A stretch of 64,000 bases of DNA from a virus, in the IMG/VR virus record IMGVR_UViG_3300036861_000805, positions 22,758 through 86,757 of that record; one strand, 5' to 3'. The position numbers and the translations under genes were made by a program. Every line of letters begins with the position of its first letter. Position 1 is the stretch's first letter. The notes beneath the pieces are model-generated. The model was given only the letters and a program-made list of their open reading frames with translations, made no database searches and was not told where the DNA came from. This document shows positions 16,806 to 58,366 of this stretch, piece by piece.

Positions 16806-17399
16806 TCAGCGGTTACTTGCGAAGACCCCATAGAAGCAATCGCCTACTGCTCCGTCCTCGTTGAGATGAGCCACGAACCCGGGGGCTCCAAGCCATTCCT
16901 CAAGTTGCTCTCGATGAAGTTCCTGGGGATGGCCTTCCCTCGCCGGCATGTTGAGCCACTCGAAGATTCTGATCGTCGCAGCGGCGGCTTTAGCTCGAGC
17001 AATGATTCGACCCGGATCTTTCGCATGGGTCAGCACGTTGTAGATCCAGGCGTCATCAAATGCTTGCCGCCCGGTGGTGCCGTTCTTGCTCGCAACGAAG
17101 TCCTCTCCCTCTTCGGATTTCAAGGCAACTCCATGAGCCTTGTAGCGAGCCTTCACCCAAGGCGGGTAGGGGGCGGGATCGACTACCAGCACCCGGCCAA
17201 AGTTCACGCACTTGAGAAGAAGCGAGACGGGCCCGCCGCCGATGTCAACGACAGAACGTCCGCCGAGATCGAAGGTCGGAGGATGCGCACAGTTCCAACT
17301 CGCGAGTAATCCCATGCGGGGCGCGTATGCGAGTTGCTTCTGCTCCTCATGAAAGCTATTGCAACAGTCCCCGAACCACTCAGCGTCGAACGAAGGCAA
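16806..17399 (-). CDS. SAM-dependent methyltransferase
   Basis: 197 residues from a TTG start. The S-adenosylmethionine motif I is VVDIGGGP at residues 50-57 and the acidic motif II is VLVVDP. The rest fits a class I fold, and a late IRIFEWLNMP segment resembles small-molecule methyltransferases. It sits beside a second methyltransferase and a glycosyltransferase, so a sugar or glycan is a likely substrate. It overlaps the next methyltransferase by 20 nt. Confidence 0.7.
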   Translation of the reverse strand: MPSFDAEWFGDCCNSFHEEQKQLAYAPRMGLLASWNCAHPPTFDLGGRSVVDIGGGPVSLLLKCVNFGRVLVVDPAPYPPWVKARYKAHGVALKSEEGEDFVASKNGTTGRQAFDDAWIYNVLTHAKDPGRIIARAKAAAATIRIFEWLNMPAREGHPQELHREQLEEWLGAPGFVAHLNEDGAVGDCFYGVFASNR

Positions 17400-17958
17400 G
17401 GCCGCTCCATCTCCAGTAGCCGTGCGGAACGAATTCCATCGTCTTGCGCGTCAGACGTTTGTCGTGACGGAAGCCGATCTCCGCCAGATGCTCGATCCAG
17501 TAGCCGTCATTCTTGCAATTGACGTGGTGGTGGCCGCCTTGCCCAGGTTGTCCATGCGTCATGAGCAGAATCTTCGCGGCCCGGAAAGTGGCGAAGAAGT
17601 TCGACATATAGCGCTCTTCGACGTGCTCCACGAATTCGCATGACCAGCAAAGATCGAACTCGCGGCCAGGGACGTAGGGGCCCTTCGTGTAGTCGTGCTG
17701 CACAATCCAGGGATCGCCTTGTGGCATACCCTCGACTCCGAGAACGTCGCAGCCGAGATCGCGGAAGTAGCGGAGCGCATGCCCCTCACCGCAGCCGACG
17801 TCGATCACGGAGCGGACCTTGCGACGCTTCACGATCCAGGACCACAGCTGCGGACAGTAGCTTCCGGCGTCTCCTCCGACGAGATAACCGCCGAGATGAC
17901 CAGCCTTGAGCATGTTGCTGACCATGATGGGCTTCCGAGGAGTTCCGAATTCACTCAC
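17380..17958 (-). CDS. SAM-dependent methyltransferase
   Basis: 192 residues from GTG behind AGAGGAGAAG. Motif I VIDVGCGEG is at residues 51-59, motif II GVEG follows, and FDLCWSCEFVEHV is the usual post-motif of small-molecule methyltransferases (UbiE-like). Neighbours are a second methyltransferase and a GT4 glycosyltransferase, so methylation of a sugar on a phage-made glycan is inferred. Confidence 0.75.
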   Translation of the reverse strand: MSEFGTPRKPIMVSNMLKAGHLGGYLVGGDAGSYCPQLWSWIVKRRKVRSVIDVGCGEGHALRYFRDLGCDVLGVEGMPQGDPWIVQHDYTKGPYVPGREFDLCWSCEFVEHVEERYMSNFFATFRAAKILLMTHGQPGQGGHHHVNCKNDGYWIEHLAEIGFRHDKRLTRKTMEFVPHGYWRWSGLAFVRR

Positions 17959-17970
17959 CGACTTCTCCTC

Positions 17971-19086
17971 TTACTCGAAGAATCCCGTCGCCCAGAGTGT
18001 GTCAAGTTGATCGAACCAACGCATGAACATCGAGCCGACAGCCTCAAGCGAGAACCGCGTAATCGCATAACTTCGGATCGCCTGTCGGTCGAGACTGACC
18101 ACCTCCTCGACTGCAGCTGCGCCCTGCTTGGGGGTGCGAAAGAGTCTCCCGCTGGCGGGACTAAGAAGTTCGGGGAAGGCCCCCCAGTCCGAAGCTACGA
18201 CCGGCGCACCGGCAAGCATGGCCTCGACGGCGACACCACCGAAGGGCTCGATGTACTTGGTGGGCACGAGTACGGCTGCGGCTTTGGCCATCAATTCCGC
18301 ACGTTCGGCGAAGTGCACTTCTCCCACGTATTCGAGATCGCCTGTGATCTCGTCCCCTTCGTAGTTCACGACCCTGCCCTTGCTCCACTCTCGAGCGCCA
18401 GGGCCCGCGATGATGAGCTTGCGTCCTGCACGTTCGGCGATCATGGCCGCGATGTCGACACCCTTACGCTGGATCACGCGGCCCATGTAGAGGAGATAAT
18501 CGCCGGGTTCGGCGAGGTAGAACTGCGCCGGCTCGAAGAAGTTCGGGATCACCTGGTGGTAAGCGGGGCCATCGGTGATTCGGCGCAACCCGTACACGTG
18601 GTGCATCCAGGCATAGCTCTCGAAAGCGGAGAAGGGACTCCAGAATCCCTCGTAGCCGATTCCGTATTCGACGCAGAGCGGGCCGCGCCGACAGTCATCT
18701 CCTGAGATCGCCTGCCCGATCGGCTGCTGCGTTCCGGTGATGAGGCATAGATAGTCGCGCTCGCGCATGCGTTCTCGGATCGCATCGATGGCCTTGACTG
18801 CGGGCTCTTGCCAGTACGGTAGGGCGGCGTCCCACTCGAAGGGTGTGCCCGCAGTGTTGAAGCCTTCCCCGAAACCCCAGCGCTCGCGGTCGGCTTGGGT
18901 CGTGATGACGACGTGCTCGGTCGCGCGGAAGTAGTCATCCGTGATGTCCGGTCCGTACGAGAAGACTTCGCAACCCTGATCGAGCATCATCGGACAGAAG
19001 CGATGGTGCTTCATGGTGTAGGCACAAGTCGAATGTTGCTCGGTCAGCGTTGTGTGCGGCAACGAGATGACATGCAGGCGTCTCAT
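17971..19086 (-). CDS. GT4 family glycosyltransferase
   Basis: 371 residues from ATG 19086, 13 nt behind the previous stop. The C-terminal half has the GT-B pattern of GT4 enzymes: LLYMGRVIQRKGVDIAAM, KLIIAGPG, LEYVGEV, then IEPFGGVAVEAMLAGAPVV and GAFPELL, with the EPFGG...E nucleotide-sugar signature. It probably moves a sugar from a nucleotide donor to a glycan or protein. Placement after tail genes and before two methyltransferases suggests virion decoration. A palindrome copy lies inside. Confidence 0.85.
   Translation of the reverse strand: MRRLHVISLPHTTLTEQHSTCAYTMKHHRFCPMMLDQGCEVFSYGPDITDDYFRATEHVVITTQADRERWGFGEGFNTAGTPFEWDAALPYWQEPAVKAIDAIRERMRERDYLCLITGTQQPIGQAISGDDCRRGPLCVEYGIGYEGFWSPFSAFESYAWMHHVYGLRRITDGPAYHQVIPNFFEPAQFYLAEPGDYLLYMGRVIQRKGVDIAAMIAERAGRKLIIAGPGAREWSKGRVVNYEGDEITGDLEYVGEVHFAERAELMAKAAAVLVPTKYIEPFGGVAVEAMLAGAPVVASDWGAFPELLSPASGRLFRTPKQGAAAVEEVVSLDRQAIRSYAITRFSLEAVGSMFMRWFDQLDTLWATGFFE
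18147..18160. repeat. 14-bp inverted repeat, copy 3
   Basis: TCCCGCTGGCGGGA inside the GT4 gene, where the minus strand encodes SPASGR. It is an exact match to the other four copies; the coding-frame context resembles copy 1 but differs from that of copy 5. Confidence 0.7.
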
Positions 19087-19099
19087 GCCCGCCAGCAGT

Positions 19100-19585
19100 T
19101 CAGCTGGCCCGGATGAAGCCCGCGGACAGATCGACGATGATGTCGTCCCCGTTCGGAACGGCGTAAGAGCCATTCACGATCAGATCATGGGCGCTGACAG
19201 GGACGAGGTTCGCATCCGTACCCGCCGTCGTGTCGTTGTCGTAGGCGATGAGCATCTGCGCCCAGATGTCACCCGCGGAGATGATCGCGAAGGTCTGCAC
19301 GGGGATCGCGATGGTGATCGAGTTCGTGGTGTCGTCGACCGTGTAGGCCGCGAGATCGACATCCGTCAACGTCTTGCGGCCGTACCCCACATTCGTGACC
19401 TCGTTCGTTGTGCCAGCCAGAACATCGGCGACGGTGTCCTTCGTCTTCAGGACTGAGGGCTGCTCGAGTCCAGACTCCGCGAGCACCAGCAGGATGAAGG
19501 CGCTGTTCGTGGGATCGTTGTTGTTGACGCGGTTGTAGAGCTCGACCTCGCGTCCCAGAGAGACATTCGCCTGCCACTGGGGCAT
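19100..19585 (-). CDS. Virion structural protein
   Basis: 161 residues, beta-rich, with alternating Thr, Val and Asn runs (TNEVTNVGYGRKTLT; TTNSITIAIPVQTFAI) typical of phage tail proteins. I recognise similar proteins among actinophage minor structural genes. It overlaps the preceding 50-residue gene by 1 nt. Exact position in the tail is unknown. Confidence 0.55.
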   Translation of the reverse strand: MPQWQANVSLGREVELYNRVNNNDPTNSAFILLVLAESGLEQPSVLKTKDTVADVLAGTTNEVTNVGYGRKTLTDVDLAAYTVDDTTNSITIAIPVQTFAIISAGDIWAQMLIAYDNDTTAGTDANLVPVSAHDLIVNGSYAVPNGDDIIVDLSAGFIRAS

Positions 19586-19737: not shown

Positions 19738-19746
19738 GTCAGGATC

Positions 19747-22884: not shown

Positions 22885-24504
22885 TCAGCTCCTTTGCACC
22901 GTAAGCGAAACCGTAACGCGGGTAATGGTCGTCACCGAATCGACATTGAAGCCGAGAATGTCGCCGGCGGTGATGCTCGTAGTCCAGCCGGAGAGAGTCG
23001 TGTCCTGTGATTTCGTCGCCGAGGAGATGGTGGGTGGCGTCGCTGAGGTAATCGAGTCCGGGTCCGTTGGAGGATAGTTAGCGTAAGTGTCTTTCCAGAT
23101 ATCGATGACGATGCTCCCACTCTGGTCAGCGAACAGCCGCGCAGCGGTAATCGTGCAGTTGAAGGGCACTTCCAGATATCCCTTCTGGCCCGTCGTAATC
23201 ACTACCCCGCCGCCGTCGATGACGAACTCGATGGCCAGAACCGTTCCGCCAGGGCCTGTCGCGCCAGTAGCTCCGTTCGCTCCAGTCGCTCCCTGTGCCC
23301 CGGTCGCTCCAGCGCTTCCGGCCGTACCGGTGGCGCCGGTAGCTCCCGGCACTCCGGGAGCGAAGGCGACGACGGTGTCGCCGAGCGCAGTCGAGAGCGC
23401 GATACCCGAATCGTCGATGTAGGTGACGTGGATGCGGCGGTAGCCGGAGACAGTGTCGATGGCGTCGATGCGGTAGACGACCCAGCGCGTCGGGTCCGTC
23501 TCGCTGAGGATCTTCAGATAGCCCGGGACGGTCGCAAAGAGGTCGAGCCACGCGGTAACGTCGCTGCCCCACGTGTCGAGCAGGTCTATATACAGCTCCG
23601 TGACTGCGGAATAGGTCGCGCTGTTGAAGCGCAGGTTCCCGGAACCGGGATCCGCGTCAGTCGTGGAGGAGTCGTCGAAGTTGAACTCGAAGGCGTCTGA
23701 ACCAAGCGCGCCCTGCGCGCCGGTCGCTCCGGTGGCCCCGCCTGGCGAGCCAGTCGCCCCTGTCGCGCCAGAATCGCCGTCCGAGCCGTCAATGCCCGCC
23801 AAGCCAGTCGCTCCAGTTGCCCCGTCAGGAGGGCCTGCTGGCCCCGTAGCACCCGTGGCACCCGCTCCGGTCGCTCCGGTTGCGCCTGTGGCTCCCGTGG
23901 CTCCTGCGACGCCCGTAGGCCCCGTAGCACCGCCTGGCGAGCCCGCCGCTCCGGTAGCACCTGTCGCTCCGATGCCGGTCGCGCCAGTGAAACCGCGCAC
24001 GCCAGTTGCGCCGGTAGCGCCACTTGCACCCGTGTAGCCGCGAGGCCCGGCGCTTCCCGCCGGGCCTGCCGGGCCCGTTGCACCCGCACTGCCCGAGGCG
24101 GGCCAGTAGATGCGCACCTCCCCGTCGTCGTAGTCGATCGTGACCCGGCCAACCTGGAACTCAGACGTTGCCGGATCCCAGACGTCAACGAGGAAGGAGA
24201 CGTTGTGTGGAGGTCGGAAGGTGGGTTCGACTCCCACGACGTCGGGCAGGATGCAAGCAACTGTTCCCGAGACTCCGGGGATAAGTGTGCCCTTGAACTC
24301 GAGCGAGTTGTCCGCATGCAGCCGGTACTGAAAATCTCCGAGGGAGAGCTCGGGATGCGTGTCGGAGGGCTGCGTCCACGTTCCGAGCAGCGTGGGCGTA
24401 TTCCAGCGACCGGCGAGCGGCCGGCGCTCCTGTCTCGTTACTCGCTGATCGACGTATCGCTGACGGCGTTCCGGGTCGTTCTCGTCGTAGACCGGGCGAC
24501 TCAT
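22885..24504 (-). CDS. Collagen-like tail fibre protein
   Basis: 539 residues. Residues 1-135 are a beta-rich head domain that could attach to the tail. Two collagen-like blocks (about residues 140-270 and 395-425) consist of Gly-x-y triplets, mainly GAT, GPA and GFT. Between and after them are compact beta domains, the last likely a trimerising or receptor-binding tip. Thr in the third triplet position recalls glycosylated bacterial collagens such as BclA. Confidence 0.75.
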
Positions 24505-48371: not shown

Positions 48372-48436
48372 ACATCGAACGAGACGGCTTCGTTGGGCAT
48401 GGGGCGGCTGGGGATCTGGCGAGTGGTGCTATGTGA
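48368..48436 (+). CDS. Possible 22-residue linking ORF
   Basis: GTG in the stop of the previous gene opens a 22-codon frame (MNIERDGFVGHGAAGDLASG...) that ends exactly across the start of the next gene. Its main role may be to carry ribosomes across the gap by coupling. Real product uncertain. Confidence 0.3.
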   Translation: MNIERDGFVGHGAAGDLASGAM

Positions 48437-48576: not shown

Positions 48577-49229
48577 AGGCCGTCATCCTCGTCCCCTGGC
48601 GCACCGACAACGGACCCCGCGCTCGCAGCTGGGCGAACGTGCGCGAGAACCTCGCCACCGTCGGAGTCCCTATCGTCGAGGGGAACAACATCGGCCGCGT
48701 CTTCGAGCGCGCTCGAGCCCGCAACATCGCCGCCGACAATGCCGGCGAGTGGGATGTCGCGCTCTTCTGCGACGCCGATATCCTCGCTCCACGGCAGTGC
48801 ATCGAAGCGGCTCTCATGCGCTCGTATCTGACTGGTGCCTACGTCGTCGTCTATTCGCATCTGCGCTATCTCACGAGACAGGGCACCGAGGAGAGGCTGA
48901 ACGGCCGCTACCCAGAGGAATGCGAGACGGATGAGGAGACGAGCTTGACCTGGGAGTGCGCGTTCGCCGTGCGCCGGGACATCTGGGATGAGATCGGAGG
49001 ATTCGATGAACGCTTCCGCGGCTGGGGCCATCAGGTTGCCGCGTTCTTCTATGCCTACGCGACCTTCGGTGGCCGGAGCCGGATCAACGGAATCGCCTAC
49101 CATCTCGATCATCCGCTCGTCGATCGCTCGCTCGAGCCGAACTTCCAGGCGAATGCAGAGCGCGCCGAGCGCTATAAGGCGGCCGTCGACGATCCGCAGG
49201 GCATGCGCAAGATCCTGGAGGAACGATGA
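48573..49229 (+). CDS. GT-A fold glycosyltransferase
   Basis: 218 residues from ATG 48573. The start KAVILVPWRTDNGPR, the D-x-D-like ALFCDADI near residue 63-70 and WECAFAVRRDIWDEIGGFDE followed by RFRGWGHQ are the signature of GT2/GT7-type galactosyltransferase-like enzymes. It transfers a sugar from a nucleotide donor. The acceptor is unknown; a phage glycan is inferred from its neighbours. Confidence 0.8.
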   Translation: MKAVILVPWRTDNGPRARSWANVRENLATVGVPIVEGNNIGRVFERARARNIAADNAGEWDVALFCDADILAPRQCIEAALMRSYLTGAYVVVYSHLRYLTRQGTEERLNGRYPEECETDEETSLTWECAFAVRRDIWDEIGGFDERFRGWGHQVAAFFYAYATFGGRSRINGIAYHLDHPLVDRSLEPNFQANAERAERYKAAVDDPQGMRKILEER

Positions 49230-49447
49230 CTAAAGACCAGACGGACGCCGTCATTGCCGTGATCAGAATTCTCGGCTTCATCGGAAATGCGCATTATTGT
49301 CCGCACTGCCTCAACCATTTCCATGACGATCGCGGACAACACAAGTCTGACTGTGCGGGACTAGCTGAACTTCAGCAGGATGAAGAATGGTGGGACATCG
49401 AGGAACGTTTGAAACTCCTAGAACACCTGGAGCGCCGTCTCCGATGA
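49226..49447 (+). CDS. Small zinc-finger protein
   Basis: 73 residues. A hydrophobic start (AVIAVIRILGFIG), then CPHCLNHFHDDRGQHKSDC, a C-x2-C...H...C zinc finger, then an acidic coiled coil (DEEWWDIEERLKLLEHLE). ATGA overlaps on both sides. Function unknown. Confidence 0.5.
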   Translation: MTKDQTDAVIAVIRILGFIGNAHYCPHCLNHFHDDRGQHKSDCAGLAELQQDEEWWDIEERLKLLEHLERRLR

Positions 49448-49962
49448 TCGTCATCGACGTCGGCTGCGCCCGTTACGGCGGCGATTTCTCCATCGAGCGG
49501 CTGCTCGAAGAGTTCTGCCCGGACAAGTTGTACGGATTTGACCCGAACGTCGACGGCCTCCAAGAGGCACTCGCACAGGGCAGGGAGCTGCAGGAGAAAT
49601 GCGGTACCGAGATATGGATCGAGGGAAAGGCCGTCTGGATACATGACGGCTTCGTAGGCTTCGAGGGGCAGGGACTCGGTGGGCGCACGTGCGAGGAGTG
49701 CGGCTCTCGGGCTGTTCCCTGCATTGATCTTGCCCGCTTCATCACTGAGCTTGACCAAAACGACATCATCCTGAAGATCGACGCCGAGGGAGCCGAGTAC
49801 ACCCTTCTCGAACATCTGATCGAGACTCGCACGGATGCCCTTCTCAAGCTCGCCTGGGTGGAATGGCATCCAGTCGGAGCCGCAGTCAACAGTCAGCCAG
49901 ACGAGCGGCGTGCGAAGATCGAGAAGGAGATCGCCTGTGAGCTCACGGAATGGCGCTGGTGA
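49444..49962 (+). CDS. FkbM-like methyltransferase
   Basis: 172 residues from ATG 49444. Motif I is IVIDVGCARYGGD, GFDPN follows as the SAM-binding acidic strand, and IILKIDAEGAEYTLLEHL (residues 108-125) is the hallmark of the FkbM family, which O-methylates sugars and polyketides. A C-x2-C pair (CEECG) is inserted. This supports methylated glycan synthesis by the operon. Confidence 0.75.
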   Translation: MIVIDVGCARYGGDFSIERLLEEFCPDKLYGFDPNVDGLQEALAQGRELQEKCGTEIWIEGKAVWIHDGFVGFEGQGLGGRTCEECGSRAVPCIDLARFITELDQNDIILKIDAEGAEYTLLEHLIETRTDALLKLAWVEWHPVGAAVNSQPDERRAKIEKEIACELTEWRW

Positions 49963-50054
49963 ACAGAGACGCCTGGGAGGGTTGCGGGCTTTATCTCTTC
50001 GGCCTCATGGTCGGGCTGGCTATCGGGATCGGCCTCGGAGCGTGGTGGTGGTAG
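49959..50054 (+). CDS. 31-residue single-pass membrane protein
   Basis: GTG in the stop overlap of the FkbM gene. A short soluble start leads into one membrane helix, YLFGLMVGLAIGIGLGAWWW, at the C-terminus. Tiny membrane proteins recur in this operon and could anchor or regulate the enzymes. Confidence 0.45.
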   Translation: MNRDAWEGCGLYLFGLMVGLAIGIGLGAWWW

Positions 50055-50106
50055 ATGGATCAGAACATCGCGGCGACGACCTCTGCGCTTGCTTCCGGGA
50101 GCCCCT

Positions 50107-50763
50107 GTGAACGTCTCGGCGATCATCGTCACTCGCGGTGATGTCGATCTCAGATCGATCCTCGAGTCCATACCGCAGGACTGGCAGGTCATCGTTTGGG
50201 ATAACGGTGCTGGCAACGTGCTGGAGAGAGCCAAGACGCCCTCTCGGCTGATGACGCTCGACGATGACATTCGTGATCTCGCCGTCTACGGCCGCTATGC
50301 GGCGATCGAGTACACGAGTAGCGAACTGATCTATGTGCAGGATGACGACGTGCTGCATAAACCAGAGGGCATCCATGAGATCGTCAATCGCTACTACGAC
50401 GCGCTCGGCCGCGAGTGGGATCACATTTTCGGCGGAGGTGTCGTCTGCAACATGCCCGCCAACTTCCGGCACTCCTTCTATCAAGAGCACGCGCTCGTCG
50501 GCTTCGGCGCGGTCTTCCATCGCGACCTGCCGTTCAAGGCGTTCCGCCGGATACCCCGAGGTCAGTTCTTCTTCGATCAACGGCACTGGTTCTACCGCGC
50601 CTGCGACATCGTCTTCACGGCCCTGACCCCGCGCGTGCTCGTCGACGTTCCTTACGAAGATCTGCCCTGGGCGAGCGCCCCAAACCGCATGTGGCAACAA
50701 CCCTCTCACCGAAAGGAGCGTGGCGACATGCTCGATCTCGTCTTGAAGGTCCGCGATGGGTGA
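50107..50763 (+). CDS. GT2-like glycosyltransferase
   Basis: 218 residues from GTG with GGGAG upstream. The strand-helix start SAIIVTRGDVDLRSIL, VIVWDNGAGN in place of the usual DNGS, and LIYVQDDDVLH with its triple Asp are the nucleotide-sugar and metal site of GT-A enzymes. HERDLPF-like and YEDLPWASAPNRMW sequences complete the fold. One of four such genes in the operon. The 52 nt before it hold no convincing gene. Confidence 0.75.
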   Translation: MNVSAIIVTRGDVDLRSILESIPQDWQVIVWDNGAGNVLERAKTPSRLMTLDDDIRDLAVYGRYAAIEYTSSELIYVQDDDVLHKPEGIHEIVNRYYDALGREWDHIFGGGVVCNMPANFRHSFYQEHALVGFGAVFHRDLPFKAFRRIPRGQFFFDQRHWFYRACDIVFTALTPRVLVDVPYEDLPWASAPNRMWQQPSHRKERGDMLDLVLKVRDG

Positions 50764-50953
50764 GTTGCGCAAGTTTCCAGGACGGCTCGTCACGCCCGGG
50801 AACAATCCCGTGACCGTCGAGGGCCGTGTCATCGAGAAATGCGAGGGCATTATCCACGTCTTCGAGTCTGTGCCGGGCCGCTGTCAGTGCGGCGAGGAAC
50901 TTTGGGCCGAGATCTCTGACGACGCCGTCGGCATCCATCATCCCGATGAGTGA
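50756..50953 (+). CDS. Small Cys-containing protein
   Basis: 65 residues overlapping the glycosyltransferase stop by 8 nt. Beta-like with VEGRVIEKCEGIIHVFE and GRCQCGEELW, a partial zinc ribbon. The fold could be a single-ribbon adaptor. No family recognised. Confidence 0.45.
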   Translation: MGELRKFPGRLVTPGNNPVTVEGRVIEKCEGIIHVFESVPGRCQCGEELWAEISDDAVGIHHPDE

Positions 50954-51689
50954 TCTACTGCGTCAGTACGAGCGGTGGGAATGCGGACGAGATGGCTACC
51001 CGCAAACCTGGCATCGAGCGCACACACTGCTTCCCAAGATGCATGAACGGTTTGGCCGTGATGGTGAAATCGTGGCCGAGGGGAGATATGTCCAGGTGTT
51101 CGGCTCGGAGGGATCGCTCGCCACTTACGGACTCAAGATCATCCCCGCAATCAAAGATCTAATCCGCGAGCAGGCCGGTCATCGCTGCCAGCGCTGCGGG
51201 CACCCGTATCGCAAGGGCGAGCACGGGAATGGCGAGTGGTCTCCATGCGACGCGCAGTGCAGGCATGGAGGGCCCTTGCGTGTCTGGAAGATCGCCGACG
51301 CAGCGGCTCTCGCGCCAACGCAAGCCGGAGACGTCGTGATCGTAGAGATCGACAACGCTTCGCCGGACTGGACTGATCCGCAGTGGGCGGGCTTCACGGT
51401 TGAGGCGCAGTGGCGCATCCTCACCGTTCACCACCTGGACGAGGACAAGACGCACTGCCGCTGGTTCAACCTTGTCGCTCTCTGCCAGCGCTGCCACCTC
51501 CGGATGCAGCGAGCCGTCGTCATGGGACGCCCCTATCACTTCGAGCACAGCGAGTGGTTCAAGCCATATGCGGCGGGCTTCTACGCCTTCAAGTACCTCG
51601 GTGAGGATCTGACGCGCGAGGAGACCATGGCTCGCCTCGATGAGTTGCTCGCGCTCGAGCACCGCTGGACACAGGAGGCGCTGCTGTGA
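50946..51689 (+). CDS. HNH endonuclease
   Basis: 247 residues from ATG 50946. A zinc pair CQRCGHPY, a Cys/His-rich insert, then ILTVHHLDEDKTHCRWFNLV and LCQRCHLRMQ form a complete HNH core with a Cys4 zinc site. The N- and C-terminal parts are helical. It interrupts the glycan operon and may be a homing endonuclease that carried the cassette. Confidence 0.75.
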   Translation: MSDLLRQYERWECGRDGYPQTWHRAHTLLPKMHERFGRDGEIVAEGRYVQVFGSEGSLATYGLKIIPAIKDLIREQAGHRCQRCGHPYRKGEHGNGEWSPCDAQCRHGGPLRVWKIADAAALAPTQAGDVVIVEIDNASPDWTDPQWAGFTVEAQWRILTVHHLDEDKTHCRWFNLVALCQRCHLRMQRAVVMGRPYHFEHSEWFKPYAAGFYAFKYLGEDLTREETMARLDELLALEHRWTQEALL

Positions 51690-51988
51690 GCCACTGGCTC
51701 GTCATTCTGGAGAAGGGCGAGGACTACGATATCGAGCACGAATCCGACTGCCCGCAGATCGACATATTGAACGGGCCTGACGGAGAACTAATCAAGGATC
51801 ACAATTGCCTCATCGGATGGCTCGTCCGCGAGGCTGGCCTCGAGCTCCTTCATGGCGCCCTCGAGGATTCCTGGCGCAGCCTCTCCGTTGGCCGGTACGA
51901 GATCGAAGGATGGACGGCACATTACCCTTCGACTCCCAACGGACCCGAAGAATGGGACGCCGGCATCTACCTTGTGGAGAACGGATGA
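51686..51988 (+). CDS. Hypothetical acidic protein
   Basis: 100 residues from GTG, GTGA overlap. Acidic, with Trp and Cys (HESDCPQID; DHNCLIGWLVREAG; WTAHYPSTPNGPEEWDAG). It looks like a compact alpha/beta domain. No family recognised. Confidence 0.45.
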   Translation: MSHWLVILEKGEDYDIEHESDCPQIDILNGPDGELIKDHNCLIGWLVREAGLELLHGALEDSWRSLSVGRYEIEGWTAHYPSTPNGPEEWDAGIYLVENG

Positions 51989-52188
51989 TCAATCCGAATT
52001 GCCATTTTGGGGACCATGACTGGCGCGGCAGCGGTGTTTGTGTCCATTGTGGAAAGCGGCTCCGGTGTTACTGCGGACAGTTCGTCACTGAAGATGGGAT
52101 CGACAAGCATATTCGCGACTCGTGCCCCATCGCATTCGCTGAGATGGCAGATGAGCGACGCAAGATCGAGAGCACATTCGCGCCGTGA
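51985..52188 (+). CDS. Small zinc-finger protein
   Basis: 67 residues. CHFGDHDW, CVHCGKRLRCYCGQF and HIRDSC give about seven Cys/His ligands, enough for two zinc sites. ATGA and GTGA overlaps on both sides. Nucleic acid or protein binding likely; function unknown. Confidence 0.5.
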   Translation: MINPNCHFGDHDWRGSGVCVHCGKRLRCYCGQFVTEDGIDKHIRDSCPIAFAEMADERRKIESTFAP

Positions 52189-52508
52189 CTCGCCGTTCAC
52201 GTGTGAAGCGCTCTCCGGCGAAGCTCCGCAAACTCGAGAAGAGGGCGGCATTCCGCCGCCGGCAGCCGTTTCTTGAGAAGCTCGTCGCGGCGACCAACGA
52301 CTACAACCACGCCTGCATCCGCGCCTTCTTCTCCGAAGAGAATGTGGAGCCAGGCGTCGTCTGCGAGACGTGCTGGCTCGAGCAGCCCTATGTGAGCGCG
52401 CCGACCTACGAGGATCGCATAGAACCGTGCGTCGGCGCGCTCGGTCTCAACTGCCCCGGCGAGATTTGCATCACCGTCGAGCACTACCGCGAGCTCTGTC
52501 CGGCGTGA
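52185..52508 (+). CDS. Basic zinc-finger-like protein
   Basis: 107 residues from GTG. An Arg/Lys-rich start (RRSRVKRSPAKLRKLEKR) is followed by four Cys in CETCWLEQ and CVGALGLNC. The basic tail may bind DNA or RNA. GTGA overlap with the next gene. Confidence 0.45.
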   Translation: MTRRSRVKRSPAKLRKLEKRAAFRRRQPFLEKLVAATNDYNHACIRAFFSEENVEPGVVCETCWLEQPYVSAPTYEDRIEPCVGALGLNCPGEICITVEHYRELCPA

Positions 52509-52693
52509 AGCTCTGTCCTCACTGTCTCACCGCCATTCCGGAGCAGGACGAGCATTGCGAGGACCAGAAAGCCTGTGGGAAACGAATCGCGAAACAGCTG
52601 AGCAAGAGATTCTCGCGTCTGGCGACGAGGCCATTCATCGGCTTTGATCCCGATCGCGCTTACCGCGAGTCGAGGAGGATGAGCGATGGCTAA
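52505..52693 (+). CDS. Small zinc-ribbon protein
   Basis: 62 residues from GTG. CPHCLTAIPEQDEHC plus a later C (KACGK) form a Cys4-like knuckle, followed by a basic helix. It overlaps the ATP-grasp gene by 8 nt. Function unknown. Confidence 0.45.
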   Translation: MKLCPHCLTAIPEQDEHCEDQKACGKRIAKQLSKRFSRLATRPFIGFDPDRAYRESRRMSDG

Positions 52694-53411
52694 CGGGTTC
52701 TCGTACGATGTCAACTGTCTTTCCTACTGGCAGCCGCGGCTCGAGCAAGCGGGTGTCCTGGTCCCCCGTACCACCATCATCCGCGCTGCGACCGATCTAA
52801 CTGTACTACTGGACGGACTGGCCCCAGAGGGCTGGGCCGAATTCCATGCGCTCGTGCAGGCCGCCTGCTACGACCACGGTCTGCCCTGTTTCCTGCGCAC
52901 GGGTCAAGGCTCCGGCAAACATGACTGGTGCGCGACATGCTTCGTCACGGATGCGGAGAACATCAGTCGCCATATAGGTGCGCTAGTCGAGTGGTCGCAC
53001 TTGGTCGGTATCGTGGGATTACCGCACGATGTCTGGGCGGTCCGTGACTTGATCCAAACGAAGCCGCTCTTCACCTGTCATCGTTACAACAACTTCCCGG
53101 TAACGCGTGAGTTCCGCGTCTTCGTTGAGAATGGTGAGGTAACACATCTCCAGCCGTACTGGCCCCCGGGAGCCGTCGACGAGGGCGAGCCCGACGAGGA
53201 AGACTGGAAGGAAAAGCTCGCGGCCATCTCGGAGTTGGAACATGACGACGAATGGCAGGTGCGCGAACTCGCCGAGCGCGCCTGGAGTGCGATGGAGGGA
53301 CAGGACTGGAGCGTGGATCTGCTGCAGGATGTGCATGGGCGCTGGTGGGTGATCGACATGGCACTAGCCGAACGTTCGTTCCGCTGGGATCCATCGGAGG
53401 CTGTGGGGTGA
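52686..53411 (+). CDS. ATP-grasp-like protein (DUF4343/D123-like)
   Basis: 241 residues. EFRVFVENGEVTHLQPYW, then WSVDLLQDVHGRWWVIDMAL near the end, follow the pattern of ATP-grasp folds with D-x-x-x-x-x-D/N metal ligands, closest to DUF4343 and D123-type proteins. Such enzymes join a carboxylate to an amine using ATP. Here it might link an amino acid or modify a glycan; substrate unknown. Confidence 0.55.
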   Translation: MANGFSYDVNCLSYWQPRLEQAGVLVPRTTIIRAATDLTVLLDGLAPEGWAEFHALVQAACYDHGLPCFLRTGQGSGKHDWCATCFVTDAENISRHIGALVEWSHLVGIVGLPHDVWAVRDLIQTKPLFTCHRYNNFPVTREFRVFVENGEVTHLQPYWPPGAVDEGEPDEEDWKEKLAAISELEHDDEWQVRELAERAWSAMEGQDWSVDLLQDVHGRWWVIDMALAERSFRWDPSEAVG

Positions 53412-54127
53412 CGATCGACATCCTCCTCCTCTGCTGGAACCGTCTTGAGATGACATCCGCTGTCTGGGCCTGGATGATGGCCCACACAAACTGGGATCTC
53501 GTCGAGCGGCTCGTCGTCTACGACGACGGAAGTGAGGACGGCACACTCGAATTCCTGCGCGAAAACGCTCATCCCTTCCGCCGCAAGGACCGCATGATCG
53601 ACGTCGAGCTGCGCCTCTCCAACTTCGGATCCCCGCCGGCGGCAATGAACCACTACCTCGCGACATCCGAGGCCGACGTGTTCGCGAAGATCGACAACGA
53701 CATCGCACTCCCCGGAGGCTGGCTCGACAAGATGGCCGCAGTGATGAAGAAGCATCCCGAGCTCGAGTTGCTCGGCATGGAAGCTGGCATGGTCGCCATG
53801 CAGGGACGTGACGGCGTCGTCTACCCGGACTATGACATCGAGCCGTGTACGAACATCGGCGGCGTCGGACTGATGCGCGTCTCCGCGTTCCGGGCGCGAC
53901 CTGAGATCCCTTACCGCGGCCGCTTCGGCTTCACAGAGTGGCAGGAACGCTACTCGCCGAGCCGCGCCTGGATCGTTCCCGACCTCGACGTGCCACAGCT
54001 CGACCGGCTTCCGTGCGAGCCATGGGTCACACTGACCGAGACATACATCGAGAAGGGCTGGAGTCGACCATGGGGAAAGTACGAGGAGAAGTGGATGGCG
54101 CCCTACTGGGCTTGGATGGAGACGTGA
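53408..54127 (+). CDS. GT2 family glycosyltransferase
   Basis: 239 residues from GTG in overlap with the ATP-grasp stop. DDGSEDGT (residues 39-46) and KIDNDI (94-99, replacing D-x-D) are the donor and metal sites of GT2 enzymes. WIVPDLDVPQLDRLP and a Trp-rich end follow. It adds a sugar to an unknown acceptor. Confidence 0.85.
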   Translation: MTIDILLLCWNRLEMTSAVWAWMMAHTNWDLVERLVVYDDGSEDGTLEFLRENAHPFRRKDRMIDVELRLSNFGSPPAAMNHYLATSEADVFAKIDNDIALPGGWLDKMAAVMKKHPELELLGMEAGMVAMQGRDGVVYPDYDIEPCTNIGGVGLMRVSAFRARPEIPYRGRFGFTEWQERYSPSRAWIVPDLDVPQLDRLPCEPWVTLTETYIEKGWSRPWGKYEEKWMAPYWAWMET

Positions 54128-54375
54128 CCGGCACCGAGGGAGGTGGCGGGAGCGCGGGGGTGCGAGCTGGCCGTTTCGTCCTTCTACACATCGGCTTCGA
54201 GGAAGGAATGGCCGAACCTGAACTCGGTTACGTAACGAGTTGGGATACATGGGAAGAGGCACAGGTCGTGTTTGAGAATGGTCGAATGCCAGTGGGTTTT
54301 CGACTCATCGATGACGCCACAGGACGCACCTGGCATCCCGGCGCTACCTACGACTGGGAATCAGCGCAGACATGA
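54124..54375 (+). CDS. Hypothetical protein
   Basis: 83 residues from GTG. A Gly-rich start, then beta-like sequence (RFVLLHIGFEEGM; VGFRLIDDATGRTWHPG). The look is of a small surface-exposed domain. No family recognised. Confidence 0.4.
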   Translation: MTGTEGGGGSAGVRAGRFVLLHIGFEEGMAEPELGYVTSWDTWEEAQVVFENGRMPVGFRLIDDATGRTWHPGATYDWESAQT

Positions 54376-54406
54376 CGCCCCGCCTCGCACGGAGGGAGGA
54401 GCAGAG

Positions 54407-54523
54407 GTGAACTGGATCGATGTCTTCTTCGCCTTCTTCGGTGGCTTCTTCTGCGGTTATATCGCTGCCCTCTGGCGTGTCTCGAGAATGATGCGCGATG
54501 CATTCAGGAGACAGCAGTGGTGA
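54407..54523 (+). CDS. 38-residue membrane protein
   Basis: GTG behind GGAGG. One membrane helix, VFFAFFGGFFCGYIAALW, then a basic end (RVSRMMRDAFRRQQW). A small integral protein of unknown role. Confidence 0.45.
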   Translation: MNWIDVFFAFFGGFFCGYIAALWRVSRMMRDAFRRQQW

Positions 54524-54846
54524 CCCCCTCACCCCCCGCACGCGGCACAGCGGCCAGGCTAAGGGCGCTGGTGGAGGAGGCGACCGATGGGCCGTGGAAA
54601 GTTGTCGGTCGGGTTGGAATGACTCCGACAAACTGGATCACGATTGCGTCGGGGACACTTGGCTTCGCCTCTGCGGATGAGGAGTCCGACGCTCGTCTTA
54701 TCGCCCTCGCTCCCGAGATGGCGGCGCTGCTCGCGGACATGGCCGACGTGATCTCGGACTACATCGATGACTTCCCGCAGGACAAGGACTGGGCTGATAC
54801 GGATCTCCTAGCCCGCCTCGACGCCCTCCTCGGTGATTCCTCGTGA
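54520..54846 (+). CDS. Ea22-like protein
   Basis: 108 residues from GTG in the stop overlap. LRALVEEATDGPWKVV, then SDARLIALAPEMAALLADM, match the Ea22/ead-like phage family, whose members share TxGPW and DARLIA. Two relatives lie at 62575 and 63373 on the other strand. Function is unknown; genes of this type sit in phage accessory regions. Confidence 0.65.
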   Translation: MTPSPPARGTAARLRALVEEATDGPWKVVGRVGMTPTNWITIASGTLGFASADEESDARLIALAPEMAALLADMADVISDYIDDFPQDKDWADTDLLARLDALLGDSS

Positions 54847-55124
54847 GCGGCGAGAGGGCCAAAAACTCCTTCTGGCTCGACGGCGGATACGACATTGAGC
54901 TGGTTGCTGCCTGCCCGTATCACCCGAATCACAAGTGGTGGACATTCCGCCTCGGAGACGTGGTGACGTACTGCCACAACCCGGATCAGCTAATGACAAT
55001 CTGCGCGGCCTGCTACGTACCTCGCTGCGGCTCGACCGCTGATTCTGACCGCTGCACTCTCTGGCGGCATCACCAGACGGAGCACATCATGGAGAGCGGA
55101 GCCAAGATTCCGGTGGGCGCGTGA
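54843..55124 (+). CDS. Cys/His-rich protein
   Basis: 93 residues from GTG. Ligand-rich sequence CPYHPNHKWW, YCHNPDQLMTICAACYVPRC and CTLWRHHQTEH could hold two metals. It overlaps the next gene by 4 nt. No family recognised. Confidence 0.5.
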   Translation: MSGERAKNSFWLDGGYDIELVAACPYHPNHKWWTFRLGDVVTYCHNPDQLMTICAACYVPRCGSTADSDRCTLWRHHQTEHIMESGAKIPVGA

Positions 55125-55267
55125 GCGACGAGCGAGAGAGAGTCCCAACCTACGGCTGGAGCCGATCGCAGTGGGGGCCATATCACAGGCAAATTGTGCG
55201 CTGGCTCGGTCGCTTATTCGAAGCACTCGGCGCTCGCCTAGATATGTGGTCATGGGGTTGGAAATGA
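55121..55267 (+). CDS. 48-residue Trp/Arg-rich protein
   Basis: GTG in a GTGA overlap. Many Trp and Arg (YGWSRSQWGPYHRQIVRWLG) and a hydrophobic end (MWSWGWK), so an amphipathic membrane-binding helix is possible. Coupled to neighbours by overlaps. Confidence 0.45.
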   Translation: MSDERERVPTYGWSRSQWGPYHRQIVRWLGRLFEALGARLDMWSWGWK

Positions 55268-55704
55268 GCAGCGGAAGAGAAAAAGCCCTGGAGACGCTGC
55301 GCGAAAAGGCCGACCTATTCGTGCATGAGGGATTCCGCGATGAGGATGGGCCGTGGCGTGACGGCCCGCACCGTATTGAGTTCTACGCTGCTCTCGCCGC
55401 CCTCGCCGCCGAGTTCCGGGCGCTGGAGGAACTACTCGCAGAGGCAGATGCGCAGGCGCATCGATACGAAAACACCATCAGGGCGCTGGAGGAGCGCTGT
55501 GAGGAAGCTGAGCAGGAGCAGGCCGCGCTCGGCAAGACGGTCGAGAACACGCTCACTGCGCTCAACGAGGCGCTGGGGGAAGTCGAGCGGCTGCGGGATT
55601 TGCTTGATCAATTGCGGCGCTCCGATCTCTTGCGGGATACGGGCTGGTACTACAAGATCACCGCCGCTCTCGCCAGCGAGCGAGATGAGGGGGGCGCGGA
55701 ATGA
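55264..55704 (+). CDS. Coiled-coil protein
   Basis: 146 residues from ATG 55264. Long, acidic helices with heptad spacing (LEELLAEADAQAHRYENTI; ALEERCEEAEQEQAALG; LNEALGEVERLRDLLDQL). It would form a rod-like dimer. No enzyme motif. The N-terminus has GFRDEDGPWRDGPH, a small conserved-looking patch. Confidence 0.5.
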   Translation: MSSGREKALETLREKADLFVHEGFRDEDGPWRDGPHRIEFYAALAALAAEFRALEELLAEADAQAHRYENTIRALEERCEEAEQEQAALGKTVENTLTALNEALGEVERLRDLLDQLRRSDLLRDTGWYYKITAALASERDEGGAE

Positions 55705-55880
55705 GCCGCCGATCTCGAGGCCGGATGTTCCGCCGATTGTTGGCCGAGATTCACTCGATGAATCCGAGCGTACAAGTGCTCGTGGCGCAAGGAATCCCGC
55801 GCCACATGGCCGAGCGAATCATTCCGTTCGCCCCCGCCTCGGAAGGCAAGCGGGCGAGCGATGGGGAGGGCGGGGCGTGA
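55701..55880 (+). CDS. 59-residue basic protein
   Basis: ATGA start. Basic helix MSRRSRGRMFRRLLAEI, then a mid helix (GIPRHMAERI) and a Gly-rich tail. No family recognised. Likely real because both ends use standard overlaps. Confidence 0.45.
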   Translation: MSRRSRGRMFRRLLAEIHSMNPSVQVLVAQGIPRHMAERIIPFAPASEGKRASDGEGGA

Positions 55881-56032
55881 AGGACATCCAGCTCCTCGGT
55901 CTTGCGCTCCAACTTTTTGGCATAGCGATTTCTGCACGCCCTCCGTTACTTCCGGACTGGCGTATCTGGAGTGTTCTTGGAGGCCAGGTTTCCGGGTTTG
56001 GTTTTGCCCTGGTCGTGATGGGAGCTGCCTGA
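55877..56032 (+). CDS. 51-residue hydrophobic protein
   Basis: GTGA start. Two hydrophobic stretches (IQLLGLALQLFGIAIS and VLGGQVSGFGFALVVMGAA) suggest two membrane passes. Another tiny membrane protein of the cargo operon. Confidence 0.45.
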   Translation: MKDIQLLGLALQLFGIAISARPPLLPDWRIWSVLGGQVSGFGFALVVMGAA

Positions 56033-56283
56033 TGCCCCCTAGCGACAAGAGCCAGAGCGACGAGCTGAGGTTGCTGGAGACTTTGAATCGCGCTCTTTAT
56101 CGCGCCTTCTTCATTGATGCCGAGGCTGCCGCTCGATGGGAGCGGATTGAGGACGAACTTGATGAAGAAACGAAGGGCGCTCTCTGCTTCGACATTGTCA
56201 GTATGGAACCACCTTCCGAAGCCATGATGGAGCAGGCACGACGGATGGCACAAGAACGCGGCTGGAAGGACGTGAAGTCGTGA
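56032..56283 (+). CDS. Helical protein with PSDKS start
   Basis: 83 residues from an ATG overlapping the previous stop by 1 nt. It begins MPPSDKS, then is helical (LRLLETLNRALYRAFF; EAMMEQARRMAQERG). The next small gene starts with the same PSDKS, from a shared 17-nt DNA repeat. No family recognised. Confidence 0.45.
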   Translation: MPPSDKSQSDELRLLETLNRALYRAFFIDAEAAARWERIEDELDEETKGALCFDIVSMEPPSEAMMEQARRMAQERGWKDVKS

Positions 56284-56387
56284 CCCCTAGCGACAAGAGC
56301 TTGGAGGCGCGGGTGCTGCGTGAGCGCGTGACGGGCAAGTATTTCGTTCGTTATGACCGGGATTGGTCCAATGCTCGGTTCTATTGA
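56280..56387 (+). CDS. 35-residue protein, partial copy of its neighbour
   Basis: GTGA start. MTPSDKSLEARVLRERV repeats the PSDKS opening of the upstream gene and then diverges to a basic end. It looks like a recent partial duplication. Its stop lies inside the next 40-codon gene. Confidence 0.4.
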   Translation: MTPSDKSLEARVLRERVTGKYFVRYDRDWSNARFY

Positions 56388-56493
56388 CGAGGCAGCCATC
56401 TTTTCGACGCCTTATTCCGCGATGCAAAGTCCAGCATGGTCATTTCCGCTGACTGTCTTTGAACTCGCCATCCCCCAGGAGCGGGAGGAATGA
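56371..56493 (+). CDS. 40-residue hypothetical protein
   Basis: ATG 56371, overlapping the previous gene by 17 nt in another frame, with its stop in an ATGA overlap with the next glycosyltransferase. Sequence MLGSIDEAAIFSTPYSAMQS then a hydrophobic stretch and an acidic end. Its coupling position supports it; the sequence itself says little. Confidence 0.4.
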   Translation: MLGSIDEAAIFSTPYSAMQSPAWSFPLTVFELAIPQEREE

Positions 56494-57248
56494 AGCTTGT
56501 CGCCTCAGTCATTGCCAAAGACGAGATGGATCGCTACCTCCGATTAGCGATCGAGCACCTGCTCACCTTCTGCGACGAGATCCGGGTGCTCGATGATGGT
56601 TCGACAGACGGCACTTTCGAGTGGCTCGGCGGACTCCGCGAGCCCGTACTCGTGAAGCGGAATCCGGGCCCCGCTTTCTACGAATACGAGTCGAAAGCAC
56701 GCCAGAACCTCCTCGAGTGGACGATGCGAGCCGACCCCGACTTCGTGCTCTCGATCGACGCCGATGAATTCGTCAGTCATCCAGATACGATCCGTCTTCT
56801 CGCGGACCAAGGCCGCAATCCCGTGTACACACTGGATATGGAAGAGGTTTGGGCCTGCGACGCGCAGCACCTGCACATTCGCGTCGACGGGATGTGGAAA
56901 AGCCGTCTCTGCCCGATTCTCTGGCGAGCTCCCGGGACGTGGACGAGGGAATGGGACATACCCGACCGCAAGCTCGCCTGCGGTCGGGAGCCGGCCATCG
57001 TTCGCCGCACCAGGTTCAAGCGCTCCGGCAGCTCGGTCTTTCATTTCGGCTGGGCACAGCGCGCAGAACGACAACGCAGAGCCGAGCGTTACTTCGAGCA
57101 CGACAAGGGCAAGTTCCACGCCGATCGACACCTGCAGTCGATTCTCTGGGACGACGCGCGCGTACATATGCAGCCGCGACCCTGGCCCGCGGGTTTGTCG
57201 GACTTTGCCGCTAATCTCGCTGACCGTGCGCAAGCGGCCAGGACCTGA
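56490..57248 (+). CDS. GT2 family glycosyltransferase
   Basis: 252 residues. A textbook GT2: VASVIAKDEMDRYLRLAIEH, DDGSTDGT (35-42), LSIDADEF (88-94) with the D-x-D metal site, then a late FHFGWAQRAERQRRAERY acceptor-side region. Most similar in layout to enzymes that add sugars to cell-surface glycans. The last glycosyltransferase of the operon. Confidence 0.85.
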   Translation: MKLVASVIAKDEMDRYLRLAIEHLLTFCDEIRVLDDGSTDGTFEWLGGLREPVLVKRNPGPAFYEYESKARQNLLEWTMRADPDFVLSIDADEFVSHPDTIRLLADQGRNPVYTLDMEEVWACDAQHLHIRVDGMWKSRLCPILWRAPGTWTREWDIPDRKLACGREPAIVRRTRFKRSGSSVFHFGWAQRAERQRRAERYFEHDKGKFHADRHLQSILWDDARVHMQPRPWPAGLSDFAANLADRAQAART

Positions 57249-57626
57249 GTGAACTTCGACCCCCTCCTCGCTGCGCCGCTCTGGCTGCATGTTCTGATCA
57301 TTGGAGCCGCGGCCTGGTCCACGTTTCAGCTCGTCGCCTTCGATGACATCCTCGACCGGCCGCGCCGCTATGTGTTGCGCATGGGGAAGGAATGGCAACC
57401 CGGGCTTGATCCCAAAACCAGACGACCGTACGAGGTCCCCGACGACTACCGGCTCGAGTTGGGGATCTTCGTCACCTGTCCCTACTGCGCGGGCTTCTGG
57501 ATCTGGGTCGCCTGGATCACTGCCTGGCTCGTGACATCCTGGACACTGATCCCGGCTCTCATCCTCGGCGGCCGCGCGCTGGTCGTTGCCGGCCACAAAT
57601 TGCTCGCGAAGGAGGAGGACAAATAG
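57249..57626 (+). CDS. DUF1360-like membrane protein
   Basis: 125 residues from GTG. An N-terminal hydrophobic stretch (LWLHVLIIGAAAWSTFQLV), then the DUF1360 hallmark VTCPYCAGFWIWVAWITAW, then another membrane helix. This phage/bacterial family spans the membrane and has no known function. It ends the operon. Confidence 0.65.
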   Translation: MNFDPLLAAPLWLHVLIIGAAAWSTFQLVAFDDILDRPRRYVLRMGKEWQPGLDPKTRRPYEVPDDYRLELGIFVTCPYCAGFWIWVAWITAWLVTSWTLIPALILGGRALVVAGHKLLAKEEDK

Positions 57627-57685
57627 TGCGTCCTCCGATCATCGACGCCGATCCCGGCGACGAGGACGAAGACTTATCAGGCTGA
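57626..57685 (+). CDS. Possible 19-residue terminal ORF
   Basis: GTG overlapping the DUF1360 stop by 1 nt, coding an acidic peptide (MRPPIIDADPGDEDEDLSG). It reaches into the convergent hairpin. Real expression uncertain. Confidence 0.25.
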   Translation: MRPPIIDADPGDEDEDLSG

Positions 57686-57689
57686 TAAG
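57673..57689. terminator. Hairpin at the convergent operon junction
   Basis: CTTATCA-GGC-TGATAAG, a 7-bp dyad that holds the stop codons of both converging genes. It has no T tract on either side, so it may be a weak bidirectional terminator or a simple palindrome. Confidence 0.35.
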
Positions 57690-58366
57690 CGCGCGCGTCG
57701 TCTCTCGCGAATCCAGAGATTGCGGCGGTTCGCGAACAGATGGTGATCTTCCTGCGGCGTCGAAAGGGCCTTCTTGTACGTCGCGTCCATCTTCCCCTTG
57801 TGCCAGAACGGATGCAGGTGCTCGACTCGCGAGTCCTTCGCGAACGCCCACTGACCCCGAGCCTTCGCCGTCTCCACGAGCTCGGTGTCGACCCACTGGT
57901 GCCGGTAACCCTCATGCAAGATCTTCCCGCGCTCGTCGACCGTCCCGTACTCGTCAATGTACGAGCGGCGAACGAGAGGATGGGTCGAATGTTTCCCGGC
58001 CATGACGGTTGCGTTCCCGAGGTCGTTCGTCCCGATGACGCCGGCGCCCGTACGCTCCGCCACTTCGAGTGCCGCGGTATCCCATCCCGAATGAAAGGCG
58101 AGATCGTCAGCTCCGAGAAGCACGAAGGGATCCTCTGAGAGCGTGAAACCGTAGTTGATCTTCCGCGCCCAGTCCCCGTGCCCCGCCTCCCACTCGACGA
58201 TCTGTACCTCCGCACCCGTGCGCTGACAGACGATGATCTCCTCTTCATCTCCCGGCGAGCAGAGGAAGATGACGCGTCTCGAGACGCTCGTCCCCACTCG
58301 AATCGAAGCCATTACCGGATGCGCGTTCTGCGGCCGCGCGAGGACGGGAATGAGAATGGTGATCAC
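57677..58366 (-). CDS. GT2-like glycosyltransferase
   Basis: 229 residues from GTG. ITILIPVLARPQNAHPVM, VIFLCSPGDEEEI, then FVLLGADDLAFHSGWDTAA with its D-D metal pair, and VDTELVETAKARGQWAF are GT-A features. It is the only glycosyltransferase gene on the terminase strand, just downstream of the large terminase gene, so it is probably made late. Virion decoration is again inferred. Confidence 0.7.
   Translation of the reverse strand: MITILIPVLARPQNAHPVMASIRVGTSVSRRVIFLCSPGDEEEIIVCQRTGAEVQIVEWEAGHGDWARKINYGFTLSEDPFVLLGADDLAFHSGWDTAALEVAERTGAGVIGTNDLGNATVMAGKHSTHPLVRRSYIDEYGTVDERGKILHEGYRHQWVDTELVETAKARGQWAFAKDSRVEHLHPFWHKGKMDATYKKALSTPQEDHHLFANRRNLWIRERRRARLSA

Follow-up and report, generated by a model that had tools for sequence, protein, structure and literature searches.

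A GT4-type glycosyltransferase and two methyltransferases in one gene run with a collagen-like fibre suggest that some viruses may coat their fibres with sugar

The window analysed here is a stretch of 64 kb (64,000 nucleotides) from the 86,757-bp IMG/VR virus record IMGVR_UViG_3300036861_000805, which is classed as possibly a fragment. On its minus strand it carries a glycosyltransferase (GT) gene and two methyltransferase (MT) genes in the same gene run as the gene of a collagen-like fibre. The capsid protein of the record is at best about 35% identical to actinophage capsids, and the recognisable virion proteins are a tape measure, a major tail protein, a portal/protease and a major capsid protein. 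Neighbouring genes were called throughout as simple open reading frames (ORFs), with no trained gene finder. Genes are named by their first window coordinate and retrieved loci by L numbers. The features at the centre of this study are:

16806 to 17399, minus strand: second S-adenosylmethionine (SAM) methyltransferase, likely partner of the glycosyltransferase (phrog_3603, 2e-50; marginal Pfam match, 0.076)
17380 to 17958, minus strand: SAM methyltransferase, likely partner of the glycosyltransferase, 12 nucleotides (nt) after it (Pfam Methyltransf_23, 2e-9)
17971 to 19086, minus strand: GT4-type glycosyltransferase of a collagen-linked family (Pfam Glyco_trans_1_4, 4e-15; phrog_3408, 4e-41)
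19100 to 19585, minus strand: small gene of the tail region, 13 nt upstream of the glycosyltransferase
22885 to 24504, minus strand: collagen-like fibre A, likely acceptor (Pfam Collagen, 3e-17)
34759 to 36609, minus strand: collagen-like fibre B, possible acceptor, among late genes (Pfam Collagen, 5e-53)

A closely packed run of minus-strand genes, interrupted by a single gap of 161 nt, leads from the tape measure gene through fibre 22885 to MT 16806. With GT 17971 starting at 19086, the successive spacings between gene 19100, the GT, MT 17380 and MT 16806 are 13, 12 and -20 nt, and the fibre gene lies about 3.8 kb upstream of the GT within this run. Collagen-like stretches occur in many phage fibres, and, as originally predicted, both fibres of the window are rich in threonine (Thr) within collagen triplets: fibre 22885 has 53 G-X-Y triplets (in runs of at least three) with Thr at Y in 28, and fibre 34759 has 128, with Thr at Y in 73 and a longest run of 61. 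Since Thr at Y is common across bacterial collagens (48.3% in Gram-positive and 31.6% in all bacterial collagens; PMC8968730), Thr richness alone is no evidence. One study reported that a recombinant prophage collagen produced in E. coli was unglycosylated (PMC3368898). A third collagen-like ORF of 227 residues (window 15244-15927, minus strand) shows by eye a hydrophobic N-terminal segment followed by Thr-poor GPAGPQG repeats; it adjoins genes at 12684-15184 that resemble lysis genes, again by eye only.

GT 17971 matches the Pfam families Glycos_transf_1 and Glyco_trans_1_4 with 52.1 and 56.6 bits (cut-offs 26.4 and 27). We revised its start to 19086, giving a protein of 371 residues; this start is likelier than 19173 because the N-terminus then resembles those of the homologues L014 and L330. 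An AlphaFold model that begins after the first 25 residues of the revised sequence (predicted local distance difference test score, pLDDT, 87.7) has as its closest solved structures the GT4-type tll1591 and AviGT4, then MshA and BshA, with TM-scores of about 0.6-0.7. The predicted fold is thus GT-B, near solved GT4 enzymes, and the mechanism is presumably retaining. The protein contains the motifs E-x7-E and GR..RKG, which we take to be the catalytic and donor motifs; the first Glu of E-x7-E is Gly in the homologues L019, L021, L022 and L023. NCBIfam holds no named family for this protein (12 families matched, all far under their cut-offs), and a Pfam search found no TPR repeats in it.

Homologues of the GT stand beside collagen-like genes in other phages. 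In the phage collection GT 17971 has matches in 53 records, 51 of them Synechococcus, and MT 16806 in 45, all Synechococcus. The row in Synechococcus phage ACG-2014f reads collagen triple helix gene, small gene, phrog_3603-type MT, GT, PiuC oxygenase, small gene and tail fibre, and in S-CAM7 and S-CBWM1 a collagen-like gene, annotated as hypothetical and as tail fiber protein respectively, directly precedes the GT. A PiuC-type or 2-oxoglutarate (2OG)-Fe(II) oxygenase gene lies directly after the GT in ACG-2014f (L037:9992-10585) and two genes after it in S-CAM7 (L038:10897-11493), and this oxygenase may hydroxylate fibre residues.

We then compared 27 IMG/VR loci retrieved by the GT alone with 22 control records retrieved by PIG-L or terminase. 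Pfam Collagen is present in 23 of the GT-found records and in 2 of the controls (Fisher p 7e-8, with related loci treated as independent), and the four GT-found records lacking it are fragments of 5.4 to 8.3 kb. Across L010-L039, which comprise the 27 IMG/VR loci and three named phages with stretches of ±10 kb, an ORF for a collagen with Thr at Y lies on the GT strand in 22 loci and on the other strand in one, and is absent from the stretches examined in seven. After clustering at 70% identity, 17 of 19 clusters, the window counted, carry such an ORF on the GT strand. Two close relatives, L011 and L025, are arranged like the window, with tail genes first, then the collagen gene, the GT and the MT.

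A scan of bacterial genome contigs returned 92 relatives, of which 79 loci were kept. These loci were divided into close homologues, Nocardia loci and distant GT4s, and the score limits set, after the results had been seen. Of the 38 close homologues, 26 have a collagen gene with Thr or Ser at Y on the same strand within 400 nt of the GT; the same holds for 1 of 22 Nocardia loci and for none of the 19 distant GT4s. The close group includes L368, whose match is cut by the contig end and scores 228 bits; L332, with a short collagen end upstream of its GT, is excluded from the 26. L330 and L345 carry a pair of G-X-T collagen and GT genes on contigs of 589 and 963 kb, and by eye we recognised no glycan cluster or virion gene among five ORFs on each side. 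Prophages may account for some of the bacterial loci. Among the Nocardia loci (L298-L313, L316-L320 and L360), 9 of 22 contigs leave only about 0.4-1.1 kb of sequence upstream of the GT match; the gene upstream of the GT in L309 encodes a Gly- and Ser-rich protein, and a gene beside the GT in L298 resembles those of type VII secretion.

In a quick tree of 95 members, phage and bacterial GTs are mixed and the starred branches force at least seven changes between the two; the method gave long-branch warnings, and 18 of the 79 bacterial rows, with a best matching stretch under 200 residues, were omitted. On the strength of this mixing the gene appears to move between phages and bacteria. The association with collagen spans the deep tree.

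The two MTs are tied to the GT by fusions between homologues of the partners. A single open frame joins an MT 17380-like domain to the GT in L346, L347, L349 and L350, and an MT 16806-like domain to the GT in L348, five loci of which L346 and L350 are near-identical. As a separate observation, L346 and L350 also have an MT 16806-like gene on the opposite strand adjoining the fusion. A homologue of MT 17380 adjoins the GT in L010 and L011. MT 16806 belongs to phrog_3603, which carries no annotation and occurs in 10 of the 27 GT-bearing IMG/VR records, and its model (pLDDT 80.1) has a methyltransferase fold matching UbiG, BamL, NodS and similar proteins. A viral scan with MT 16806 gave two relatives and no new locus to keep. 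A relative of MT 17380 sits amid replication and hypothetical genes in Caulobacter phage Cr30, where the 16.5 kb examined contain no collagen-like ORF.

From gene neighbourhood, fusion and fold we infer that GT 17971, MT 17380 and MT 16806 probably form a module that glycosylates and methylates fibres, an assignment in which we have reasonable confidence. The GT would add a sugar, probably from a uridine diphosphate (UDP)-sugar donor, to the hydroxyls of Thr or Ser in the G-X-T repeats of collagen-like tail fibres. Its most direct acceptor would be fibre 22885, made from the GT's own gene run. The two MTs would then methylate the sugar, or a neighbouring group of the glycopeptide, as a cap. 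The findings suggest, as far as sequences can indicate, that the fibres of some viruses carry a sugar coat.

Several observations weigh against this assignment. Four genes separate fibre 22885 from GT 17971 in the window, and the Pfam collagen closest to the GT is about 11 kb away in L012 and L013. Within the ±10 kb stretches the closeness of the two genes is only modestly beyond chance (Monte Carlo p 0.025 for 17 loci; 20 were entered, and three were lost when simple gene calling failed to pick up the GT or the collagen gene). The post hoc division aside, the bacterial count is 27 of 79, and the Nocardia fraction implies that the GT family is not confined to collagen. The association also runs one way, the reverse being weak: pattern scans for phage collagens found at least 120 (GAT)3 and at least 117 GPQGPK loci, and among the matches listed the GT is present, within the DNA examined at each locus, in only 2 of 120 and 1 of 117. 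Finally, the enzyme with demonstrated activity on collagen repeats is Clostridioides difficile SgtA, which is encoded next to bclA3 and in vitro attaches O-linked N-acetylglucosamine to Thr in collagen-repeat peptides. SgtA is described as a protein of 358 residues, of GT-A type with TPR repeats (PMC7157674), whereas GT 17971 is of the GT-B/GT4 type with no TPR match.

Two broader ideas were tried and rejected. A general link between GTs and Thr-rich phage collagens was not found, since phage collagens seldom have generic GT2 genes as neighbours: among the families listed (25 of 56 for the (GAT)3 set and 25 of 65 for the GPQGPK set), Pfam GT2 occurs in 3 of 140 and 4 of 140 neighbours, sampled from 212 and 203 respectively, and families with a single member, such as the GT4 of L122 in the (GAT)3 sample, fall outside those listed. 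Thr content as a marker of GT carriers was ruled out as well. The median fraction of Thr at Y is 0.57 in GT-linked collagens (23 of 30 loci measurable) and 0.18 in the GPQGPK set (80 of 117), which is biased by its own motif, and it reaches 0.62 in the (GAT)3 set (94 of 120), which is biased the opposite way and nearly all without the GT.

One alternative is that the module decorates the capsid or tail tube and that its adjacency to collagen merely reflects shared late tail operons. Two other GTs of the window have a bearing on such targets:

41118 to 41702, minus strand: glycosyltransferase of the Che8 gp110 family, between the capsid and portal/protease genes (phrog_854 glucosyltransferase, 1.5e-10; no Pfam match)
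48573 to 49229, plus strand: glycosyltransferase of the Che8 gp109 family (phrog_1721, 2e-20; Pfam below cut-off)

Mycobacteriophages glycosylate both capsid and tail tube, and glycosylation of the capsid is reported to require Che8 gp110 and Corndog gp38 as essential enzymes in their respective phages (PMC12363180). GT 41118 shares phrog_854 with Che8 gp110, and GT 48573 shares phrog_1721 with gp109; their direct phmmer similarity to the Che8 proteins is faint (19.5 and 28.2 bits, with E-values from a set of 19 sequences). Because of these families, the capsid role of gp110 and the position of 41118 between capsid and portal/protease genes, 41118 and 48573 by analogy more likely act on capsid or tail tube. 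For the module of GT 17971 we consider such a target unlikely: the modest excess of tail-region proximity over chance would fit it, but the 26 of 38 close homologues that adjoin a collagen-like gene in Clostridia and other bacteria argue against it, as do L330 and L345 with no virion gene recognised around their pairs. Che8 gp108 (L293:1172-2347) is matched along its full length by a GT family and, at residues 214-391, by a methyltransferase family as well, and the Che8 set may therefore include a methyl step. Phage Phrappuccino has three GTs and one methyltransferase in a row, so GT/MT sets of this sort are already known. GT 41118, like GT 57677 below, had no tblastn match in the phage collection, and viral scans with GT 48573 and with tail gene 24505 returned no loci.

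The enzymes could instead alter wall or surface glycans of the host, for instance to block superinfection. The remaining enzymes of the window are these:

46635 to 47189, plus strand: PIG-L-type deacetylase (Pfam PIG-L, 6e-8)
47575 to 48099, plus strand: SAM methyltransferase of the PIG-L group (Pfam Methyltransf_23, 4e-7)
49444 to 49962, plus strand: FkbM-type methyltransferase (Pfam Methyltransf_21, 2e-4, just under cut-off)
50107 to 50763, plus strand: GT2-like glycosyltransferase of the PIG-L group (Pfam GT2, 1e-4, just under cut-off; no PHROG match)
53408 to 54127, plus strand: GT2 glycosyltransferase (Pfam, 3.5e-8)
56490 to 57248, plus strand: GT2 glycosyltransferase (Pfam, 1e-10; phrog_13126, 1.8e-7)
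57677 to 58366, minus strand: GT2-like glycosyltransferase, one small gene from the terminase gene (phrog_14945 glycosyltransferase, 3e-10; Pfam GT2 only at E 0.05)

Lipid or wall glycans are frequent substrates of the PIG-L and GT2 families, and nothing that we found speaks against a host target for the PIG-L group. A role on host glycans has been published for phage GTs (PMC10202952, PMC7029224), and it would suit the Nocardia copies of the GT, which are mostly not beside collagen. GT 17971 itself lies in a late tail gene run and is linked to collagen elsewhere, and as an account of the enzymes this alternative seems to us distinctly unlikely. Enzymes 46635, 47575, 50107, 53408, 56490 and 57677 form a set apart from both the fibre module and the Che8-type GTs. 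Genes of the PIG-L, 47575 and 50107 types recur in the order of the window in L054, where the run is longer and its further ORFs resemble GTs and methyltransferases by eye; phmmer matches to GT 50107 lie near PIG-L in L046, L047 and L054. An R2K-type ATP-grasp protein (window 52686-53411, plus strand; Pfam R2K_3 just under cut-off) is encoded within the enzyme cluster. Farther along, a tRNA-Met at 61186-61260 holds a 64-base stretch (window 61197-61260) that is 89% identical to Xanthomonas phage Elanor, a likeness that probably reflects just the tRNA gene.

The original prediction was of a single multi-sugar glycan, methylated and possibly deacetylated, that the whole set of twelve enzymes would build on fibre Thr. 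Its inventory is sound: seven GTs, four non-DNA MTs, one PIG-L deacetylase and two collagen-like fibres are all present, some with an alternative start. Six of the twelve enzymes (17971, 17380, 46635, 47575, 53408 and 56490) pass the curated Pfam cut-off and three (48573, 49444 as FkbM, and 50107) fall below it in the right family; none of the other three is assigned by Pfam, 41118 and 57677 resting on PHROGs and 16806 on PHROG and fold. The enzymes were also said to be interleaved with virion genes, which describes 16806-19086, 41118 and 57677; the genes of 46635-57248 lie on the plus strand, mostly amid small genes in which no virion function is recognised.

A single pathway nonetheless has something in its favour. 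All the enzymes share a genome with two Thr-rich fibres, and genes of the MT 49444 type occur near the collagen-linked GT in L010, L012 and L013 (the GTs of the latter two being identical). In L047:2533-7825 a GXT collagen-like ORF of 943 residues, a phrog_13126 GT2 and PIG-L lie within about 5.3 kb; this may be a second, unrelated collagen glycosylation set, and GT 56490 and the phrog_13126 member of L047 have no mutual phmmer match despite their common PHROG. Set against these points are the Che8 families of 41118 and 48573, with their link to capsid glycosylation (PMC12363180), the rarity of collagen in PIG-L records (2 of 16, L047 being one of the two) and the position of 46635-54127 on the opposite strand among the small genes just described. 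We judge the one-glycan pathway improbable. The enzyme set splits into three, namely the fibre module, the Che8-type GTs, and PIG-L with MT 47575 and GTs 50107, 53408, 56490 and 57677; fibre glycosylation with methylation, proposed for the whole set, is supported for GT 17971 with MTs 17380 and 16806, through their collagen neighbourhood and fusions.

Phage GTs also act on hydroxymethylated bases in known systems. Hypermodification of phage DNA by these enzymes is very improbable and was set aside: a GT role on modified phage DNA is named in PMC10202952 and PMC7029224, and the record encodes a C5-cytosine methylase outside the window (record 15531-17360, L003:3731-5560; 609 residues, matched over residues 29-202 only), but apart from it no DNA-hypermodification enzyme was found in this possibly fragmentary record, neither by a Tet_JBP search, which matched no control genome either, nor by a Pfam scan of 95 further predicted proteins for a base-modifying oxygenase, hydroxymethylase or nucleotide kinase.

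Returning to the fibre module, we put forward tentatively a wider proposal, which we hold with less than even confidence. The unnamed GT4 family may be devoted to the O-glycosylation of G-X-T collagen triple helices, and may be common to and exchanged among actinophage-like phages, cyanophages and Clostridia. Phage MTs, fused or neighbouring, would cap the sugar and thereby place methyl-capped glycan sleeves on host-binding fibres. This would be a second route to collagen Thr, of a fold unrelated to SgtA. A GT4/MT module that follows Thr-rich collagens across phages and Clostridia offers a direct way to ask genetically whether viruses use sugar to stabilise or mask their fibres, and a candidate enzyme family, one that NCBIfam does not name, for glycosylating collagen-like proteins.

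The closest parallel is SgtA and BclA3, in which a GT gene likewise lies beside the gene of a Thr-rich collagen-like protein, a spore glycoprotein in C. difficile and a fibre here; the setting differs in that GT 17971 travels with methyltransferases and concerns a virion rather than a spore, and SgtA was compared by its published description. The glycan of Bacillus BclA ends, we presume along with the original prediction, in a methylated sugar; BclA too is likened by its description. Modification of Mimivirus collagen acts on hydroxylysine through a bifunctional enzyme, whereas here Thr-rich repeats occur with GT4 and MT genes. BclA is reported as a glycosylated collagen-like protein, and both hydroxylation and glycosylation of its own collagen are attributed to Mimivirus (PMC8968730).

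ACG-2014f resembles the window in that its counterparts of 16806 and 17971 stand beside an annotated collagen triple helix protein, their own annotations going no further than hypothetical protein and group 1 glycosyl transferase; it differs by the PiuC-type oxygenase after its GT, no 2OG-Fe(II) oxygenase having been found among the scanned proteins of our record. The Che8 gp108-gp110 set is matched through 41118 and 48573, but gp110 is reported to target the capsid (PMC12363180), and GT 17971 has no phmmer match to the three Che8 proteins and lies outside their PHROG families. We found no earlier description of a collagen-linked phage GT in the open-licence literature searched. Glycosylation of collagen Thr by a neighbouring GT (SgtA/BclA3) and glycosylation of virions by mycobacteriophage GTs are already known; new is a GT-B/GT4 family with a collagen neighbourhood, fusions to methyltransferases and sharing between phages and bacteria.

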